Below, in pieces: positions 24,294 through 40,386 of a DNA stretch of 64,000 nucleotides. The position numbers were made by a program, and so were the translations under genes. Each line of letters begins with the position of its first letter. The first letter of the stretch is position 1. The stretch is from contig NZ_CM001558.1 in assembly GCF_000281895.1 (NCBI RefSeq), forward strand, positions 4,716,556-4,780,555, read 5' to 3'. This DNA comes from Pseudomonas fluorescens Q2-87 (lineage in GTDB: Bacteria; Pseudomonadota; Gammaproteobacteria; Pseudomonadales; Pseudomonadaceae). The notes under the pieces were generated by a model, which was not told the origin of the DNA, searched no databases, and was given only the letters and a program-made list of their open reading frames with translations.

Positions 24294-24411
24294 GTCCGTG
24301 TGGATACACACCACCCAAAAAGCCCGACCACGGCCCCATTCCGACTTTAGCCACATTGACCGCAAGATGCTAAGCTGCCGCCCGGCTGGCTTGGCTTGCG
24401 AGAGGTACGTT

Positions 24412-24852
24412 ATGGAATTGGTGGTTCATAGCTATTGCCTGAAAGGCGCACGCCAGGAGCCTTTGCTTCCCCCCGTCACCCTGACACCGATCTCGTCGAT
24501 CCTGACGGTCGCCGAGCTCATTCGCCTCACCGTTGCCGAACAGATCGCCGCGCTGTCGGTCCAGCACTGGCTGGAACAGGCGGCCATGCGCGAGGTGCTC
24601 GATCGCCAGTACCTGAGCGAGCGGGACATCCTTCAGCAAGCCGGTGAAGGCGCAGTCGTCATGCCGCAAGCCAAGGCATCCCCCAAACTGGATCTCGACG
24701 TCGAAATCGAGCGAGCCTTGAAGGGCTTTGAAACCCGCGCATTCCGCGTTCTGCACAACGGCGTCATACTACAGAACCTCAATGACCTCGTTGATGTAAG
24801 CCCCCCTTCCACGCTTGCGTTTATCCGTCTGATGCCGCTGCTTGGCGGTTGA
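24412..24852 (+). CDS. Candidate ubiquitin-like protein with C-terminal Gly-Gly
   Basis: Protein of 146 residues from ATG 24412 (GAGAGG six nt upstream). The N-terminus MELVVHSYCLKG, then VTLTPISSILTVAELIRLTVAEQIAAL, reads as a beta hairpin followed by a helix, as in ubiquitin. The C-terminus FRVLHNGVILQNLNDLVDV, then PPSTLAFIRLMPLLGG, follows the ubiquitin pattern hhh-x-G-x-x-L-(n)-L-x-D-(n)-S-T-L-h-h-h-R-L-(n)-G-G and stops exactly at Gly145-Gly146. A helical insert (about 50-105) separates the halves. The next gene, encoding a DUF4132 protein, begins 30 nt later, so the two form an operon. No E1, E2 or JAB peptidase gene lies in the window. I see the pattern directly; conjugation is inference. 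Confidence 0.65.
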   Translation: MELVVHSYCLKGARQEPLLPPVTLTPISSILTVAELIRLTVAEQIAALSVQHWLEQAAMREVLDRQYLSERDILQQAGEGAVVMPQAKASPKLDLDVEIERALKGFETRAFRVLHNGVILQNLNDLVDVSPPSTLAFIRLMPLLGG

Positions 24853-24882
24853 TTCCTGTTGCTCTCTTCTTCGGAGCCCCTC

Positions 24883-27813
24883 ATGCAATCACGTCGTCCA
24901 ATGCCGGACCAATCCACACGCCTCGCTGCGCTGGGAGCCTTCTGTGACAGCGCGTTGGATACCTATCCCGAGCTCAGACGATATGACGAATTCGAAATCG
25001 ATATCTGGGATGGCATCGACTTCCTGGGCATTGCCAACGACTGGGTCAGGCAGCAGCCACAGGAAGGCGCCAGGGCACTGGCGGACGGTTTTGTGTTCCC
25101 GATCGTCTGGGACGACTTGAAAGACCGCCGCGACCAACAGCGCTACGGCCTGCAATATCGCATTTGCGATGCGTGGGTGACTGCCCACCCCGATGCCTAT
25201 GCGCTGGAGCAGATCTGTGCGCGACTGCAGCACATGCTGCAATTTGCTTTCGAGGACAGCGACTATCCACTGCCCACTGATGACGACGATCCAGCCTATT
25301 ACCGCAGACGTCCGGAACACGCCTGGGCCTTTCCCGATGTGTCGGATTGCATCAACCGCCTGAGCGATTACCCGTCCACCCCGGCCTGGCAAACGTTCGC
25401 CGAATGGTTGCTGGACGGCAGTTGGAACCGTGTGCAGCCACCGTCCTCGCCTGATGAAGAGCAAAGGCGACTCGCCGACGCGTACATCTACGTGCACAAC
25501 GAGATCCGGCGCATTGCTCTGGGCCTGATGGAAGCAGGCCGGCTCGATTACCCTCGCTTCGCCCGGGCGGCCAACACCTGGGGTCGCGCCATGATGTTCT
25601 ATACAGACGCCGCCGGGCTCGGCAGTGATGACGTGGACTCGAATCGGTACGCCGGTGAAGCGTTAGACGAGGACGCCCCAGATGACGAAGCCCCTGACGA
25701 CGAAGCGTGCGAGACGGAGCAACCTCAGCGCGAAGATTCACTGATCGAGGAGCCGGCCGACGTGCCACCTGAACTGGCGAACTTTACCGTTCGTTATGTC
25801 GAGGACGCCCTGGCCGGATTACCCGATAATGCCGAGAAGCTGGCGGACACCTTCCGTTCGGTGCAGGCCTATCAGACCCGCTGGCTGCTGTTGGCCCTGG
25901 CGGCCATCGAACGTCTGGGTATGACACCCGACACCTTTCACGACAGCTTCGGCAGTACGGCCGCGGTGCTCGAACGTTTCCTGTCGCTCCAGCAATTGCC
26001 CAAGGAGCAATCGGCGGAGCTGCTCGCGCCACTGACCCGTTTTTCAAGAGATACCCTGCTGACCGCCCTGCCCTACGCCGGGCACGCCAGCCGAGTGGTA
26101 CTCGACGCGCTCGGCTGGGGTGATCTGCAAGGCTTCCAGCGTGAATACCTGAACATCGCCCTCGCCCCCCAGTCCGGCTGGGGCAGCGACCTGCCCAATA
26201 CGCTGGATGCAACCGTGGGTGTGGTGGACCGCTATCTTCTGGACAAGGCGCTGGCCGAAGCTGACCCGCAGCACTTGCGCGAATACCTCGCCGCACTCGC
26301 TCCCTCGCACTGGGCGTTTCCCGAAACCCGCGTGCTGCTCGATGCCTATCAGGGTATCGGTCGTCCCGCACTGGAAAAGAAGCTGACCCGCCACGCCCAG
26401 CCGGCAATGCGCATCTATGGGGTATTGCCCGTCACGCATTCGGACGACGTACGCCAGCGCTACCTGAAGCTCAAGAAATTGCACCAGGAGGTGCGTAAAT
26501 ACGGCGCTCAACGACAGGCCAACTCCCACGCGGCGATTCAGGCGGGGCTGGAAAACCTGGCGCGTGTTGCCGGTTATCCATCGGCGATTCGCCTGGAATG
26601 GGCCATGGAATCGGAGATCTCCGAATCCGCCATGACGGCCGCCACCATCGATGGCTATGACGTCACGCTGGTGAGCGACGGCTTGTCGCCCACGTTGCGC
26701 ATCTGCAAAGCCGGAAAGACGCTCAAGACCGCACCGCCAGCGATTCGCAAAAACGCGGACTTCCTTGCTCTCAAAGCACAGCAGGCCCAGATCCAGGAAC
26801 AGACTTCACGCTTCTGCCGCACTCTGGAAACGATGATGAGCAGCGGCGAAACCCTGGCTCTGGATGTCCTGAAAACCCTACTGAAAATGCCTACGGTCCG
26901 CCTGCTACTGGAGCAACTCATCGTTCAAGCCGACGACGCTGTGCTGGGCTGGCTCGACAGCACGACGCTGTCAGTGACCGACATTGAAGGGCGCCAGTAC
27001 ACCGTTAAACAGAACCTGCGCATTGCACACCCTTTTCATCTGTTCACGGCAGGACAACTGTCGGCCTGGCAGAAAGCGGTCGTCAGCCACCGCCGTGTAC
27101 AGCCCTTCAAACAAGCCTTTCGCGAGCTGTACCTGCTGACCCCCGCCGAGCGAGATACACACGTGTGGTCCAATCGATTTGCCGGCCACCGCCTGAAAGG
27201 CAAAGTGGCCGCACGGTTGCTGCAGGTTCGCAACTGGTCGACCTCAAGCGTCGAAGACATCTATTACGAGAGCAAGGAGCACGGCATCTACGCCACGTTC
27301 AATTTTCTGGATACCGGTCATTACCTGTCCCAAACAGAACACTTCACCTTCGACACGATTGCGTTCTACCGCGACCAGAAAGCCTTGCCTCTTGAACAGG
27401 TACCGCCACTGCTGTTTTCAGAAGTCATGCGTGATGCCGACCTACTGGTCTCCGTGGCCCACGCCGCGGACGGCTATAGCACCAGTCAGGAAACCCTGCA
27501 GCGACGCGCCGAACTGGTCGCGGAGCTGACTCGGGGGCTGGGACTGCAAAACGTCAGATGTGAAGGGCATTTCCTGCACATTACCGGCCAGCGTGCGAAC
27601 TACCGCATTCACCTGGGCAGCGCGGCCATCCATATCGAACCCGGCAACTACCTGTGCATCGTGCCTGTTAGCGGCAGCGCCACCGAGTTCTACCTGCCGT
27701 TCGCCGACACCGACAGAAAAATGGCTGAGGTGCTGAGCAAGATGTTCCTACTGCTGGACGACATGAACATCACCGACAGCCAGATACTCGAACAGATACA
27801 GCTGGCGAGCTGA
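24883..27813 (+). CDS. Large DUF4132 (MolR-type) protein
   Basis: Cytoplasmic-looking protein of 976 residues from ATG 24883 (CGGAG six nt upstream, better than the TTG at 24859). The N-terminal half is mostly helical, with an acidic low-complexity linker at about 261-291 (EDAPDDEAPDDEACE). The C-terminal third carries the DUF4132 core from about 580 (TIDGYDVTLVSDGLSP, then ICKAGKTLKTAPPAIRKN) through FRELYLLTPAERDTHVWSNRFAGHRL. A final region (about 870-976) ends LPFADTDRKMAEVLSKMFLL, DD, DSQILEQI. E. coli MolR/YehI proteins share DUF4132 and sit beside MoxR-ATPase/vWA genes, which are absent here. Function is unknown. Its partner is the Gly-Gly protein just upstream. Confidence 0.8.
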   Translation: MQSRRPMPDQSTRLAALGAFCDSALDTYPELRRYDEFEIDIWDGIDFLGIANDWVRQQPQEGARALADGFVFPIVWDDLKDRRDQQRYGLQYRICDAWVTAHPDAYALEQICARLQHMLQFAFEDSDYPLPTDDDDPAYYRRRPEHAWAFPDVSDCINRLSDYPSTPAWQTFAEWLLDGSWNRVQPPSSPDEEQRRLADAYIYVHNEIRRIALGLMEAGRLDYPRFARAANTWGRAMMFYTDAAGLGSDDVDSNRYAGEALDEDAPDDEAPDDEACETEQPQREDSLIEEPADVPPELANFTVRYVEDALAGLPDNAEKLADTFRSVQAYQTRWLLLALAAIERLGMTPDTFHDSFGSTAAVLERFLSLQQLPKEQSAELLAPLTRFSRDTLLTALPYAGHASRVVLDALGWGDLQGFQREYLNIALAPQSGWGSDLPNTLDATVGVVDRYLLDKALAEADPQHLREYLAALAPSHWAFPETRVLLDAYQGIGRPALEKKLTRHAQPAMRIYGVLPVTHSDDVRQRYLKLKKLHQEVRKYGAQRQANSHAAIQAGLENLARVAGYPSAIRLEWAMESEISESAMTAATIDGYDVTLVSDGLSPTLRICKAGKTLKTAPPAIRKNADFLALKAQQAQIQEQTSRFCRTLETMMSSGETLALDVLKTLLKMPTVRLLLEQLIVQADDAVLGWLDSTTLSVTDIEGRQYTVKQNLRIAHPFHLFTAGQLSAWQKAVVSHRRVQPFKQAFRELYLLTPAERDTHVWSNRFAGHRLKGKVAARLLQVRNWSTSSVEDIYYESKEHGIYATFNFLDTGHYLSQTEHFTFDTIAFYRDQKALPLEQVPPLLFSEVMRDADLLVSVAHAADGYSTSQETLQRRAELVAELTRGLGLQNVRCEGHFLHITGQRANYRIHLGSAAIHIEPGNYLCIVPVSGSATEFYLPFADTDRKMAEVLSKMFLLLDDMNITDSQILEQIQLAS

Positions 27814-27826
27814 TGTCAGGCTTTGC

Positions 27827-29176
27827 TCAGGCCGCCGCCACAGCAACGCCCGGCACCACCACCGCACTCATTCCCTCCTTCATCCGCTTGGCATCCCTCA
27901 CAAAGCACCGCGAAGACATAAACAAAAACACCATCGTCAAAAACAACGCCACCGGAATCAGATACATCGCGTCGTGCAACCCGATGGCCTTGAACGCCTC
28001 GGTCATCTGATCGACGCCAGCCGCCGCCATCGCCGTGCGGGCGAAGTAATCGGACAGCCCGCCCACCACCACCGGTCCCAGCCCCCCGCCTAGCAAATAA
28101 AGCCCGGCAAAGTACAACGCCATCGCCGTGGCGCGCAGGCGCGGTTCAACCACGTCCTGGATCGCCGTGTAGACGCAGGTGTAGAAGTTATAGGCAAACA
28201 ACCAACCGACGCTGAACACCGCCACGAACACGCCAATTTCAATACGCCCCGCGCGCAGGGCCCAGGCCGTGGTGACCGTCGAGATCGCCAGGCTGAACGC
28301 CGCGAACAGCAGGCGGCCGTTAGGTACGCGCTGGTGAATCTTGTCAGCGACCCAGCCGCCCAGGGTAAGGCCGAACAACCCGGTCACGCCCACCATGATC
28401 CCGGTGGCGACGGCCGCCTCATGCAGCGGCATCAGGAAATAGCGCTGCAGCATCGGCACCAGGAACGAGTTGCAGGCATACGTCGCAAAGTTGAAGCACA
28501 GCCCCGCCAGCACCAACCAAAGAAATGTCGGTATCGCCAATACCCGACGAACAGGCCGGTCGACCTTCTCCTGGGACACTTGCACGGTTTCCGCCGCGCC
28601 GCGCTTGGGTTCCTTGATGAAAAACATGAACACCGCCAGCATCAGCCCCGGTACCGCCGCGATGAAGAACGGTGCACGCCAGCTGTCGAACGCCTTGACC
28701 ATCGCGCCAATGGTAAAGAACGCCAACAGCAGGCCAAGGGGCAGGCCGAGCATGAAGATGCCCATCGCCCGCGCCCGACGATGGGCCGGGAACAGATCAC
28801 CGATCAACGAGTTGGCGGCCGGTGCATAACTGGCTTCACCAATACCCACGCCCATGCGCACCAAGAGAAAAGCCCAGAAGCTGCCCACCAGGCCGTTGAC
28901 CGCCGTCAGTCCGCTCCAGGCTGCCAGGCCCCAGCCCATCAACTTGCTGCGCGAACCGGTATCGGCCATGCGCCCCAGCGGCAGCCCGGCAATGGCGTAG
29001 ACAATGGTAAACGCGGTGCCGATGATCCCGATCTGGAAGTCGCTGAGACTCCACTCCATACGGATCGGCTCGATAATGATCGCCGGAATGGTGCGATCGA
29101 AGAAGTTGAACAGGTTGGCCAGGAACAGCAGGAACAGAATGCGCCAGGCATTCGCCGCTTGGGTCGAGTTCTGCAT
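27827..29176 (-). CDS. MFS transporter, spinster-like
   Basis: Inner-membrane transporter of 449 residues, starting at ATG 29176 (MQNSTQAANAWRILFLLF). About 12 hydrophobic segments are present. Motifs include NLFNFFDRTIPAIIIEPI in helix 1, the motif A variant LPLGRMADTGSRSKLMGWG, and RMGVGIGEASYAPAANSLIGDLFPAHRRARAMG. These fit the spinster/AAHS-like branch. The substrate is unknown. It converges with the DUF4132 gene (13 nt between stops) and diverges from the tubulin-like gene. The frame is open for 30 more codons upstream, but without a clear ribosome site. Confidence 0.85.
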   Translation of the reverse strand: MQNSTQAANAWRILFLLFLANLFNFFDRTIPAIIIEPIRMEWSLSDFQIGIIGTAFTIVYAIAGLPLGRMADTGSRSKLMGWGLAAWSGLTAVNGLVGSFWAFLLVRMGVGIGEASYAPAANSLIGDLFPAHRRARAMGIFMLGLPLGLLLAFFTIGAMVKAFDSWRAPFFIAAVPGLMLAVFMFFIKEPKRGAAETVQVSQEKVDRPVRRVLAIPTFLWLVLAGLCFNFATYACNSFLVPMLQRYFLMPLHEAAVATGIMVGVTGLFGLTLGGWVADKIHQRVPNGRLLFAAFSLAISTVTTAWALRAGRIEIGVFVAVFSVGWLFAYNFYTCVYTAIQDVVEPRLRATAMALYFAGLYLLGGGLGPVVVGGLSDYFARTAMAAAGVDQMTEAFKAIGLHDAMYLIPVALFLTMVFLFMSSRCFVRDAKRMKEGMSAVVVPGVAVAAA

Positions 29177-29498: not shown

Positions 29499-31721
29499 AT
29501 GACAGAGATTGTCGAACCGACCAGTTCAGGCATACGGCGCACAATGACTTCCAAAAAAACAGCCACTGCGGTTTCCGATCTGACCCTGAGCCCGGCCGCC
29601 AACGGCCCTGAAGCCCCGACGCTTTCGAGCAGCTCGCGATCCCTGGCGACCCAGCAATATCTGTATTTCACCGAAACCAACACCGACCGCATCCTCGACA
29701 ACCTCGATGGCCTGCGCGATGCCGTGTTCCCACGCCCTCCTCATCTGGTGGATGACGAGAGCGAACGTGGGCAGCAGGAGTTCCCCTCGGTGTGCCTGAT
29801 CGGCCTGGGGCGCTGCGGTTCCAACATCGCCCTCGACGTGGCAGAGCTGGTGTACAACGCCCGCAAGTTCTACCTCAACGAATTCAACGCCGAAGACAAA
29901 AGCTACAGCGACAAGGGCTACCGCCCTACGCAGTGGATCCGCAATAACCTGCGCCTGGGCAGCAACAAGGCCAGCAAACCGGTGTTCTTGGTCGAGCCTC
30001 TGGTGATGCTCGGCGACTTGGACAAAGACATCGCCGGACGCATCCGCTTCTCGCGCAAAGGCGAGAAAAGCGGTTTCCTGCGTGACTACAGCAAGATGAA
30101 AATCATGGACTTGTCGGAAGTCCACGCCGGTGGTGCCGGTAACGCGCCGATCCTGGGCCAGTACCTGGCCAAGATCATCCTGAACAAGGACACCCAGCGC
30201 TTCTCCAGCCCCGATTGGAAAATGATCCACTCGTACCTGATCGACAGCTGCGGCATCAAGGCCAACCAGTCGCGCCTGTACTTCTCGATCTTCAGTGCCG
30301 GTGGCGGTACCGGTTCGGGCATGGCCTCGGAATTCGGCCTGGCCCAGCAGTATTCGTACATGAACAAAACGTTCGACACCAAGCCGATGGACGAACACGA
30401 CAGCAAGAGCGGCCACTCCTTCGTCTTCGAGCCGATCTTCACCAGTGGCATTTGCGTGCTGCCGAACATTTCCGACCACCGCAGCGAAATGTCCGAGGCG
30501 CTGCACATCAACGCCGGACGCCTGCTGTGCAAATACCTGTCGGAAGAATGGGATTTCTCGTACAACTTCGCCAACGAAGACAGCAGCGAAGCCAGCGTGA
30601 TGGGCCGTATCCGTCCGTGGAACGCAATGATGCTGATCTCCAACGACATCATGCGTTATGCCGAAGAAAGCGATGACGGCAACATCCAGAACATTGATGT
30701 CAATGCCATGGAGAAGCACGCCAACCAATACATCTCCCAGCAGATTTTCAACATCCTGACCGCCCAGGCCGTCACGACCGACTACGACCAGAACTACTTC
30801 CGCCGTGCCGGCATCGACATCGGCGAAACCATTCGCCTGGACGCCAACGACCTGTTCATGAGCCTGGCCGGCCCGGTGGCGATTGCCTACGCCGAATCCG
30901 TCGTCCCGGAAACCCCGGCGCCGAGCGGCGACAAGTTCAAGGTGTTCGAAAAAGAGCCGCCGCGCCTGAACATCGATGATCTGTTCTTCCGCTCCATCGA
31001 CCTGCCGCACTTCAACAAAGTGACCCAGGCCATCGAAGGCATCAGCCTGTTGCCGATCGAATCCAAGCGCTACCGGGCTTCGCTGGAGCAATACAAGAAT
31101 TCCGGCTACGACGCCGCGGCCCTGCACGACCTGCATTTCTTCAAGAATTGCTCGTCGGTGGTGTCCATCGTCTCGCTGCCCAAGGACTACAAGCTGTCCT
31201 ACATGGACCTGAACCGGCTCAAGACCCACCTCAACAGCCTGTTCCCCAACACCACGCTCAAGCGTTACGCACTGGTGATCGGCGCTTCGGCCAACCTGTC
31301 GCTGACCACCCTGATCGCCAAGAGCCCGTGCCTGTCGGATGACTTCCTGACGTTGATCGTGGCCTTTATCAAGCGCTGCTTTGCGCGCACGCCATATCGC
31401 TTCGACGACACCCTGGACAACTCGATCCTGGACTTCATCATCAACGAGGACTTCGACGAGGCACGGATCGACGAGCTGCTCAACGAATTCGAGAACCCGG
31501 CGAAGATCCTCGACACCAACTGGTATGCGATCAAGCCGATGTACGAGAAGAAGTACCGCGAGCTGATCAACGACAAGGAAAAATTCGTCTCGATCAACGA
31601 CATCCGCCTGTCCCGCGACTGCGTGAAGAAGTCGATCAAGTACCTGCGCGAGATCTACCGTCACCGTATTGGCAAGACCAAGGTTATTTCCTTGAATAAC
31701 CATACGGGCAAGAGTTATTGA
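29499..31721 (+). CDS. Large tubulin/FtsZ-superfamily GTPase
   Basis: Predicted GTP-binding cytoskeletal protein of 740 residues (725 if the ATG at 29544 is used; neither has a strong ribosome site). The tubulin signature is clear: CLIGLGRCGSN at about 99-109 (nucleotide loop T1) and SAGGGTGSGMASE at 266-278 (loop T4, GGGTGSG). Between them lie LVEPLVMLGDLDKDI and GGAGNAPILGQYL. After them, SFVFEPIFTSGICVLPNISDHRSEMSEALHINAG fits the rest of the fold, and GETIRLDANDLF is a candidate T7 loop. The C-terminal ~250 residues are mixed alpha/beta of unknown role. It resembles the Pfam Tubulin_2-type chromosomal proteins, not PhuZ or TubZ (about 300-480 residues). No membrane segment was seen. It stands alone. 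Confidence 0.85.
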   Translation: MTEIVEPTSSGIRRTMTSKKTATAVSDLTLSPAANGPEAPTLSSSSRSLATQQYLYFTETNTDRILDNLDGLRDAVFPRPPHLVDDESERGQQEFPSVCLIGLGRCGSNIALDVAELVYNARKFYLNEFNAEDKSYSDKGYRPTQWIRNNLRLGSNKASKPVFLVEPLVMLGDLDKDIAGRIRFSRKGEKSGFLRDYSKMKIMDLSEVHAGGAGNAPILGQYLAKIILNKDTQRFSSPDWKMIHSYLIDSCGIKANQSRLYFSIFSAGGGTGSGMASEFGLAQQYSYMNKTFDTKPMDEHDSKSGHSFVFEPIFTSGICVLPNISDHRSEMSEALHINAGRLLCKYLSEEWDFSYNFANEDSSEASVMGRIRPWNAMMLISNDIMRYAEESDDGNIQNIDVNAMEKHANQYISQQIFNILTAQAVTTDYDQNYFRRAGIDIGETIRLDANDLFMSLAGPVAIAYAESVVPETPAPSGDKFKVFEKEPPRLNIDDLFFRSIDLPHFNKVTQAIEGISLLPIESKRYRASLEQYKNSGYDAAALHDLHFFKNCSSVVSIVSLPKDYKLSYMDLNRLKTHLNSLFPNTTLKRYALVIGASANLSLTTLIAKSPCLSDDFLTLIVAFIKRCFARTPYRFDDTLDNSILDFIINEDFDEARIDELLNEFENPAKILDTNWYAIKPMYEKKYRELINDKEKFVSINDIRLSRDCVKKSIKYLREIYRHRIGKTKVISLNNHTGKSY

Positions 31722-38273: not shown

Positions 38274-39143
38274 ATGTTGAATACCCCATCCCTCGCCACT
38301 GATAACCGGCTGCCGCCAAGGGCAGGGTTGGGGCTCAAGAGTGAGCATTTTCGTGAGGTGCTCCAGACCCTACCGGATCTGGGTTTTTTCGAAGTGCACG
38401 CAGAAAATTACATGGTGGCTGGCGGGCCACTTCATCACTACCTGGGGCGGATACGCGAACAGTACCCGTTGTCGTTGCACGGCGTCGGTCTGTCAATCGG
38501 CGGGGAGGAGCCGCTGGATGTCGCACATTTGCAGCGCCTGGCCGCACTGATCGAACGCTATCAGCCCCAGTCCTTTTCCGAACACCTGGCCTGGTCCAGC
38601 CACGGCCCGGTGTTTCTCAATGACCTGCTGCCCCTGGCCTACGATGAGCCGACCCTTGAGCGCGTCTGCGAACACATCGACCAGGTGCAGTCCTGCCTCA
38701 AACGCAAGCTGCTGTTGGAAAACCCGGCCACCTACCTGGCGTTCGAAGCCTCGACCCTCGACGAGCCACACTTCATTAGCGAAGTCATTCGTCGCACCGG
38801 CTGCGGTCTGCTGCTGGATGTGAACAACCTCTACGTTTCGTGCGTCAACCACTGCCGCGATCCACTGGCCTACCTCGACGCCCTGCCCCTGCAAGCGACC
38901 GGGGAAATTCACCTGGCCGGCTTTGCCGAAGACACCGACAGCCTCGGCGAGCGTCTGCTGATAGATAACCACGGCGCCCTCATCGATAACGAAGTCTGGC
39001 GGCTGTATCGCAAGGTCCTGGAACAGACCGGGCCGGTAGCCACCCTGATCGAGCGGGACAACCACATCCCCGCATTGGAGGTGCTACTGACCGAAGCACG
39101 CCAGGCCGAGCGACTGTTAAGCACCGCTGGAGCCCGGCCATGA
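38274..39143 (+). CDS. bufB1: MNIO family (DUF692) peptide-modifying enzyme
   Basis: Multinuclear non-heme iron oxidase with a TIM-barrel fold, 289 residues. DUF692 landmarks are [52 protein letters not shown] and LIERDNHIP; the His, Asp and Glu in these boxes are the metal ligands of the family. It should act in the cytoplasm on cysteines of the precursor before export. It starts 25 nt after bufA1, and its stop overlaps the next start (ATGA). Confidence 0.92.
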
Positions 39144-39910
39144 AACGCCAGAGCGAATTTGCCGCGGCCCTGCTCGACCCGCGCCTGGCCTGTCCGCCGG
39201 GACTGATCAGCGCCAATGGCGCCGATCCTGAGAGCCGCTTCGCGGTGTACCGCAACAACGTGCTCAGCTCATTGATCAACGCCTTGGCCGACAATTACCC
39301 CGTGGTGGCGCAACTGGTGGGCAAGGCATTTTTCCAAGGCATGGCCGATGTATACATTCAACTAGCAGCACCGCGCAGCCCGATCATGAGCGACTACGGC
39401 GCCGAGTTTGCCAACTTTATCGAACATTTCGAACCCGCCGCCTGCGTGCCCTATTTGGCGGACGTAGCCCGCCTGGAGCGGCTGCAAGTCGAGGCTGGGC
39501 ATGCAGCCGACGCCCAGCCCATGAGCCAGGCGCGAATCGTGGAAGTGCTGTCGTCCCCTGCGCTTGCAGCGGATTTGAAGTTTGTTTTTCACCCATCACT
39601 GCGCCTGCTGCAATCACCTTTCGCGGTGGTCGCGATCTGGGCCGCCCATCAGCAAGAGCCTCCGGTACCGTTCGAACCGCGTTCTGCGCAAAACGCACTG
39701 TTACTGCGCAACGGCCTCGACGTGGAGGTGCTCGCAATCAGTCACGGCGCCCTTGCCTTGATCACTTCCTTGCAGCAGGGCCTGCCCCTTACGACGGCCA
39801 TGGAGGCCGCAATCGAGCACCACACCGATCTCAACCTGAAGCACATCCTGGCGGGGCTCATCCGCCATCAAGCCATTATTGATCTCCTACCTGCACAGGT
39901 AACCCAATGA
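39140..39910 (+). CDS. bufC1: DUF2063 partner protein of the MNIO enzyme
   Basis: Protein of 256 residues annotated in databases as a putative DNA-binding domain (DUF2063). In MNIO RiPP clusters, this partner is thought to bind the precursor and present it to the oxidase. The N-terminal pattern FAAALLDP, then [35 protein letters not shown] is typical, followed by [12 protein letters not shown] and [13 protein letters not shown]. It is coupled at both ends by 4-nt overlaps, to bufB1 and the DoxX gene. Confidence 0.9.
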
Positions 39911-40386
39911 ACGCTCTGATTGCTGGTTTCATTCAATGGCTGGAGAAAATCCCTCATAGCCTGATCGCCTTTATTGCCCGTTTTTCCATCGCCGCGGTGT
40001 TCTGGAAATCCGGCCAAACCAAAATCGAAGGCCTGGCCATCGACCTGTTCGACGGCACCTTCCAGATCAGCCTGCCGCATCTGGCGGACTCCACCATTCC
40101 CTTGTTCAAAAGCGAATACGCCTTGCCGTTGCTGTCGCCGGAACTGGCCGCGCACCTGGCGGCCTCCGCCGAGCATGTGTTCCCGGTGCTGATTCTGCTG
40201 GGTCTGGCGACACGCTTATCCGCGCTGGCCTTGCTGGGGATGACCTTGACCATTCAACTGTTCGTCTACCCGGATGCCTACCCGACCCATGGCACCTGGG
40301 CGGCGGTCTTGCTCTACCTGATAGCCCATGGGCCGGGGGTGCTGTCGATCGATCATCTGATTGCCAAGCGTTACGCCCACAACTGA
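39907..40386 (+). CDS. DoxX family membrane protein, bufferin cluster
   Basis: Inner-membrane protein of 159 residues with four hydrophobic segments (LIAFIARFSIAAVFWKSG, AEHVFPVLILLGLATRLSALALLGM and others). DoxX proteins often close buf-type operons, where they are suspected of a redox or quinone-linked role; this is not settled. It overlaps bufC1 by 4 nt and is the last gene before a REP pair. Confidence 0.87.
   Translation: MNALIAGFIQWLEKIPHSLIAFIARFSIAAVFWKSGQTKIEGLAIDLFDGTFQISLPHLADSTIPLFKSEYALPLLSPELAAHLAASAEHVFPVLILLGLATRLSALALLGMTLTIQLFVYPDAYPTHGTWAAVLLYLIAHGPGVLSIDHLIAKRYAHN

Follow-up and report, generated by a model that had tools for sequence, protein, structure and literature searches.

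A mobile gene pair joining a Gly-Gly-ending, predicted beta-grasp protein to a DUF4132-DUF7737 protein in Pseudomonas and other bacteria

What use might a bacterium make of a small protein that ends exactly in Gly-Gly and is encoded directly ahead of a large DUF4132 protein? The question is raised by two adjacent genes in the window, i.e. the whole 64,000-nucleotide (nt) stretch of Pseudomonas fluorescens Q2-87 DNA that was analysed, which comes from a genome of 6.37 Mb in a single contig. An earlier note, made from the sequence alone, read the two genes as an operon of a ubiquitin-like protein, with an end suited to adenylation by an E1, and a DUF4132 protein that acts on it or carries it; taken as a whole, that interpretation is partly supported, having largely withstood the refuting conditions it set for itself. 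In at least four bacterial phyla the two genes occur together as a small cassette that moves horizontally. Tentatively, and at somewhat less than an even chance, we favour a reading in which the cassette encodes a MoaD/Urm1/SAMP-like protein that would be activated by MoeB and would work with its DUF4132-DUF7737 partner.

A free Gly-Gly end on the flexible tail of a beta-grasp protein is the form adenylated by E1-like enzymes in the case of MoaD, ThiS, Urm1, the SAMPs and ubiquitin. The frame of the small protein runs into Gly-Gly and a stop codon after 146 residues, as had been read from the sequence, and its AlphaFold model (predicted local distance difference test score, pLDDT, 85.8) has the beta-grasp fold, including both the strand-strand-helix start and the helical insert noticed beforehand. 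The best matches to the model among solved structures are MOCS2A (top), ubiquitin and SAMP1. The further claim, that the C-terminal region follows ubiquitin almost position by position, is in part owed to chance: its 'S-T' is not kept by relatives (cluster-weighted conservation of S133 is 0.35, and the position of T134 is most often K, at 0.26), relatives do not retain the loose resemblance ahead of the tail, and a profile search of PDB sequences found no ubiquitin chain. The tail that relatives do keep is F-x-R-L-x-P-L-x-G-G, which looks more MoaD-like than ubiquitin-like.

A Pfam scan of the 146-residue protein gave no family over cut-off. Relatives numbered 49 by single-sequence search (E ≤ 0.001) and 101 by profile search (E ≤ 0.01), and a third, broader protein search gave 432 matches; the closest named relatives are from Pseudomonas. 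The tail count rests on 120 of these 432 plus the earlier searches, i.e. on 171 sequences including the query, which group into 18 clusters when the identity threshold is 50%; nine proteins that were fragmentary or rearranged (P0030, P0047-P0050, P0076, P0077, P0093 and P0097) had been removed beforehand. Gly-Gly is the usual terminus in 17 of the 18 clusters and in 102 of the 106 sequences that these comprise, the other four ending in GGAG (three) or VER (one); with cluster weighting, Gly145 (0.99) and Gly146 (0.94) both rank in the top ten positions by conservation. In 19 Pseudomonas genes the final glycine is specified by three codons and the preceding one by a single codon, the residues being unchanged. 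The existence of these relatives, together with the conservation of the tail, implies that the pattern in the 146-residue protein is more than chance. The proposal that homologues keep Gly-Gly thus stands for 17 clusters and fails for the Bacteroides-type cluster, which is considered below. The three GGAG-ending relatives (P0054, P0056 and P0058) are metagenomic and may be pro-forms needing trimming; two of the removed proteins, P0048 and P0049, have apparent internal deletions, with the start of the small gene fused to later sequence.

The association of the two genes, first seen in a single genome, proved constant: the next gene downstream, on the same strand, encodes a DUF4132 protein in all 28 distinct loci with readable context, which represent four phyla. 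These loci are the window, 18 from other Pseudomonas, Endozoicomonas sp. G2_1 (by protein match), another genome of the same phylum, Novosphingobium humi, four Deinococcus, Bacteroides finegoldii and Nonomuraea gerenzanensis; L002/L041 and L010, apparently one genome, were counted once, and L022/L023 are parts of L039/L040. Depending on the locus, the two genes overlap by up to 11 nt or stand as much as 54 nt apart, if the earliest available start codon is taken. In a plasmid collection searched by tblastn, the small protein of the window gave no match, that of Bacteroides matched five records and that of Streptomyces two, with a DUF4132 gene adjoining in all seven. The pairing is one-way, i.e. 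DUF4132 also occurs without the small gene, whereas the small gene is always with DUF4132 in the loci read. Other DUF4132 genes (nine stretches from seven genomes, one gene reaching a contig end) had no ubiquitin-fold neighbour, nor had the Acetobacter and Burkholderia DUF4132 genes that were checked; nine of the 13 plasmid records with DUF4132 were examined. Of 299 Pseudomonadota genomes, 10 have DUF4132, and of 398, three have the small protein, the genome of the window being counted in both; among 95 relatives the small protein is present in two, again including the genome of the window. One Pseudomonas DUF4132 gene is interrupted (L016 4402-7333), and an Acetobacter plasmid gene (L065 3282-7502), whose upstream neighbour is not of the ubiquitin fold, lies near a BrnT-type toxin gene.

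The limits of the cassette are sharp (Table 1). Alignments of the window with the 18 other Pseudomonas loci start 19-85 nt 5' of the first start codon, in a leader with an atgctaag stretch that many Pseudomonas copies retain, and stop no more than 10 nt short of, or 17 nt beyond, the end of the second stop codon. Since similarity ends at the edges of the two genes, the pair moves as a unit. It is the only feature common to all of 20 Pseudomonas stretches (19 genomes), any other gene group being present in at most five of them; for this comparison an antisense frame was chosen over the small gene in seven of the 20, in which the small gene itself is present by profile. Flanks are partly common to some related genomes (L005/L007/L009, L016/L017 and L018/L021).

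Table 1. Features of the gene pair and its limits, in window positions
Feature	Position	Strand	Remarks
146-residue ubiquitin-fold (beta-grasp) protein, Gly-Gly end	24412..24852	+	frame ends Gly-Gly-stop
Codons of conserved terminal tail P-L-x-G-G, residues 142-146	24835..24849	+	
976-residue protein	24883..27813	+	DUF5724 C-terminal end, residues 508-575; DUF4132, residues 611-785; DUF7737, residues 873-972
Short 5' leader common to Pseudomonas copies, left cassette edge	24327..24411	+	alignments to 18 loci start 24327-24393
Right cassette edge, at the DUF4132 stop	27803..27830	+	similarity to 18 other Pseudomonas loci ends here

With regard to the partner, an ATG leaves a gap of 30 nt after the stop of the small gene, and Pfam finds DUF4132 (PF13569; E 3e-37, 128.7 bits against a cut-off of 27) and DUF7737 (E 3.2e-32), which confirms the 976-residue DUF4132 gene as originally described; a mechanical list of open reading frames opens the same frame at a TTG, position 24859. 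No WGR domain was matched by Pfam at E ≤ 1 in this protein. DUF7737 is a better marker of pairing with the small gene than is DUF4132: it is present in all five carrier proteins scanned (window, L039, L040, L042 and L044), absent from all three scanned proteins from DUF4132 loci with no ubiquitin-fold gene alongside (L053, L055 and L057), and found in four of 398 genomes, i.e. all three carriers plus one fragment. As an exception, Nonomuraea has a second DUF4132-DUF7737 gene that is without a small gene (L043 7940-11245).

The homologous pair of Deinococcus radiodurans, among the closest known systems, has the same order, with the genes 2 nt apart and directly after thioredoxin TrxC; its small protein ends TALAGG and matches the broad profile, which included it, at E 1.1e-33 and the earlier one, which did not, at 4.3e-19, whereas the large protein is longer than that of the window (1626 versus 976 residues), with most of DUF5724. 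The exact published DdrO motif lies 63-82 nt upstream of the small gene (L042 3056-3075), which identifies the pair as DRA0165-DRA0166, these locus numbers being assigned from TrxC synteny and the exact DdrO site, not from annotation. A damage-response palindrome stands 5' of the small gene in all four Deinococcus species examined (L042, L062, L063 and L064), with one mismatch to the published consensus in D. radiodurans, D7000 and D. psychrotolerans and two in D. ficus; shuffles that are equally good number 0, 1, 0 and 41 per 1000, respectively, the D. ficus palindrome being the weakest, with symmetric changes.

Others have reported on this pair. In PMC8533742 (2021), drA0165 is listed among the targets of DdrO, its motif lying at -83, and in a putative operon with drA0166 (DUF4132), and the DRA0166 protein increases after mitomycin C in an IrrE-dependent manner; the D. 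radiodurans pair belongs to the DNA-damage response. In PMC9650054 (2022), DRA0165 (SEP068184) is raised by radiation and H2O2, and its predicted structure resembles MOCS2 and SAMP1, i.e. is MoaD/SAMP1-like. Deletion of its gene, which is viable and leaves DRA0166 expression unchanged, gives higher H2O2 resistance and overexpression gives lower resistance; DRA0165 binds Trx1, and 157 proteins co-precipitate with it in all four tag designs, two of which are C-terminal (PMC9650054). The same study states that DRA0165 is restricted to Deinococcus and lacks a radiation/desiccation response (RDR) motif. Our results contradict, and so correct, both points: relatives exist outside Deinococcus, and the damage-response motif is present.

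How might such a pair work? The small protein may be a stress-linked beta-grasp protein of the MoaD/Urm1/SAMP kind, with a flexible Gly-Gly tail that the housekeeping E1-like enzyme MoeB would adenylate and perhaps also thiocarboxylate. Once activated, the small protein would then be used by, or on, its dedicated partner, with DUF4132-DUF7737 either directing the small protein onto targets or itself receiving it. In Deinococcus, DNA damage switches the pair on and the pair alters behaviour under oxidative stress, much as with Urm1 in eukaryotes, for which conjugation under oxidative stress, the lack of a dedicated E2 or E3 and an antioxidant enzyme as target are reported in the available text of PMC7911844. 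In this reading MoeB activation, physical association with the large protein and covalent attachment are inferred; the pair, its predicted fold, Gly-Gly conservation, the cassette and the damage-response motif come from sequence or computation, and induction, the H2O2 phenotype and Trx1 binding from the work of others in D. radiodurans. The genome of the window has two ThiF-family genes, read from context and sequence as MoeB-like and TcdA-like, and two PF02597 proteins. A JAB-domain match just over cut-off (28.9 bits) also occurs there, inside a 571-residue frame (G000:C1:195552-195791).

Several observations weigh against this reading. The first concerns kinship: no significant sequence similarity to ubiquitin, MoaD or ThiS was found, Foldseek alone gave no match at E ≤ 0.001, Pfam gave no PF02597 (ThiS/MoaD) match to the small protein up to E 1, and profile-profile comparison, a check of the kind proposed in the earlier note, returned non-significant probabilities of 2% against MoaD-like and 0.4% against ThiS-like sequences. 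The second is the Bacteroides-type cluster (65 of the 171 sequences, including named Bacteroides proteins), which has tails of [SA]GRxW or a near variant, so that adenylation cannot be universal unless the tail is processed. Binding, moreover, needs no free Gly-Gly, because C-terminal tags are among the designs that bind the 157 proteins (PMC9650054, available text). Among ten DUF7737-type proteins, the C-terminal 480 residues contain a single column with at least four cysteines (cysteine in eight of ten, alanine in Bacteroides) and no cysteine is invariant, which makes a thioester-type ligase unlikely in this region. No E1, E2, protease, JAB or sulfur-transfer gene lies within the cassette limits in the Pseudomonas loci, and the E1, E2 and JAB neighbours that had been proposed for a search in other genomes do not travel with it, there being no third shared gene in Pseudomonas. 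ThiF-family counts, which take in matches below the family cut-off, do not differ between the 19 Pseudomonas genomes that carry the pair and the 20 that lack it (median 3 versus 3, p 0.74); ThiF genes being present also in non-carriers, their presence lends no specific support. With no E1 in the cassette and no ThiF enrichment in carriers, the E1, if any, is probably housekeeping MoeB.

Much of this evidence would equally suit a non-covalent subunit, a quite possible alternative in which the small protein binds DUF4132-DUF7737 obligately, with its Gly-Gly tail lying in a narrow pocket of the large protein and no E1 activating it. MoaD, the tail of which inserts into a pocket of MoaE, provides the model. 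The constant pairing with DUF4132, with nothing else shared in the Pseudomonas stretches, is in keeping with such a role, as are the absence of a dedicated or enriched E1 and the co-precipitation of many proteins even with a C-terminal tag (PMC9650054). The Bacteroides finegoldii locus, the one Bacteroides-type locus among the 28, keeps the pair despite having GRLW for Gly-Gly. On the other hand, a free Gly-Gly, the normal C-terminus in 17 of 18 clusters, exceeds what a pocket plug needs, and no DRA0165-DRA0166 interaction is named in the available text of PMC9650054. The subunit reading is nearly as likely as MoeB activation because of the Bacteroides tails without Gly-Gly, the tolerated C-terminal tag and the lack of an invariant cysteine in the C-terminal half of DUF4132. 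For the same MoeB-activated protein, a stronger formulation, i.e. a minimal, mobile, stress-induced modification system in at least four phyla that borrows MoeB as its E1 and uses DUF4132-DUF7737 as a new, cysteine-independent class of conjugation factor or as a dedicated target, appears to us rather unlikely.

Sporadic distribution, flanks that differ between Pseudomonas lineages and sharp two-gene boundaries might instead suggest a defence or toxin-antitoxin-like cassette, a mobile conflict module with the large protein as effector and the small one as controller. We consider this improbable: among the proteins tried no PADLOC model matched, except weakly for the Streptomyces small protein (E 0.028), no DUF4132 relative was confirmed in viral contigs, and in Deinococcus the pair is a damage-regulon member, in which the viable DRA0165 deletion with unchanged DRA0166 expression (PMC9650054, available text) indicates that DRA0165 is not an essential antitoxin. 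An additional MoaD serving molybdopterin synthesis, a role hinted at for DRA0166 (PMC8533742) and DRA0165 (PMC9650054) in the available texts, would fit MOCS2A as top fold match and the MoaD-like tail, but is very improbable given the lack of a Pfam ThiS/MoaD match, the helical insert, the two PF02597 proteins already in the genome, moeA and moeB not being differentially expressed upon DdrO depletion (PMC8533742), and the 20 Pseudomonas stretches, which have no moaE or other molybdenum cofactor (Moco) gene in common since DUF4132 is the sole shared neighbour.

The pair had been thought undescribed. That holds in part: the drA0165-drA0166 operon (PMC8533742) and the DRA0165 study (PMC9650054) precede us, while ubiquitin, Gly-Gly and 'conjugat-' are words absent from the available main text of PMC9650054. 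In the literature searched (subscription papers and preprints lying outside its scope), none of the three papers naming DUF4132 has 'ubiquitin-like', DUF5724, DUF7737 and 'MolR family' are not mentioned, and 'MolR-like' is met in a single jumbo-phage paper. Among the papers listed that carry the DRA0165 or DRA0166 label, two concern Deinococcus, judging by title. Among the papers on ubiquitin-like systems listed, titles and opening parts of abstracts do not describe the pair; SEP068184 is named outside PMC9650054 in a single sentence of another paper. DUF4132 proteins being unexplained, the tight link to a Gly-Gly ubiquitin-fold protein offers a specific biochemical hypothesis with an assayable tail, and D. 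radiodurans R1, for which a regulator of the pair, a phenotype and a list of interacting proteins are already known, is a genetically tractable model. If the tail is activated, the cassette would represent another bacterial ubiquitin-like system without its own E1, joining Moco and sulfur-carrier enzymes to stress signalling.

In the window the cassette is flanked on its left by genes for a major facilitator superfamily (MFS) transporter, an FAD-binding protein and an AraC regulator, and on its right by one for another MFS transporter, which is encoded on the opposite strand. The eleven other window proteins scanned (two MFS, FAD-binding, AraC, DUF5064, four transporter genes, an enzyme of the ribosomally synthesized and post-translationally modified peptide (RiPP) type and a tubulin-like frame) include no MoxR ATPase or vWA protein, in agreement with the earlier note. 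The tubulin-like frame (29499-31721, + strand, 740 residues) has a GGGTGSG tubulin/FtsZ-like signature with sub-threshold Pfam matches (Tubulin E 0.0038, Tubulin_2 E 0.022) and is possibly a divergent tubulin-like GTPase. Positions 38274-40386 (+) encode an MbnB/TglH/ChrH-type RiPP-modifying enzyme (E 3e-104) followed by two tightly spaced frames and are likely a small RiPP cluster.

Comparison with known systems shows shared and differing features. MolR/WGR-type proteins share the DUF4132 domain, whereas in the window protein DUF7737 is present and WGR is not matched, and MolR/yeh-type loci have MoxR ATPase and vWA neighbours, which the window locus lacks among the eleven proteins scanned. 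Bil and type II CBASS are ubiquitin-like operons with E1, E2 and/or JAB genes. With these, and with the operons of PMC1779556 (the available text of which mentions neither 'MolR' nor DUF4132), the pair has in common a ubiquitin-fold gene in a small operon, whereas the cassette has no E1, E2 or JAB gene. With MoaD/ThiS, Urm1 and the SAMPs the small protein shares the predicted beta-grasp fold and the terminal Gly-Gly, its P-x-x-G-G tail being as in the MoaD-like sequences collected; it differs from them in its helical insert, its DUF4132 neighbour and the lack of an E1 in the cassette. The likeness to Urm1 is close: besides the points given above, loss of Urm1 in flies and deletion of DRA0165 both raise oxidant resistance, though the sign is not uniform, yeast without Urm1 being more sensitive (PMC7911844 and PMC9650054, available texts).

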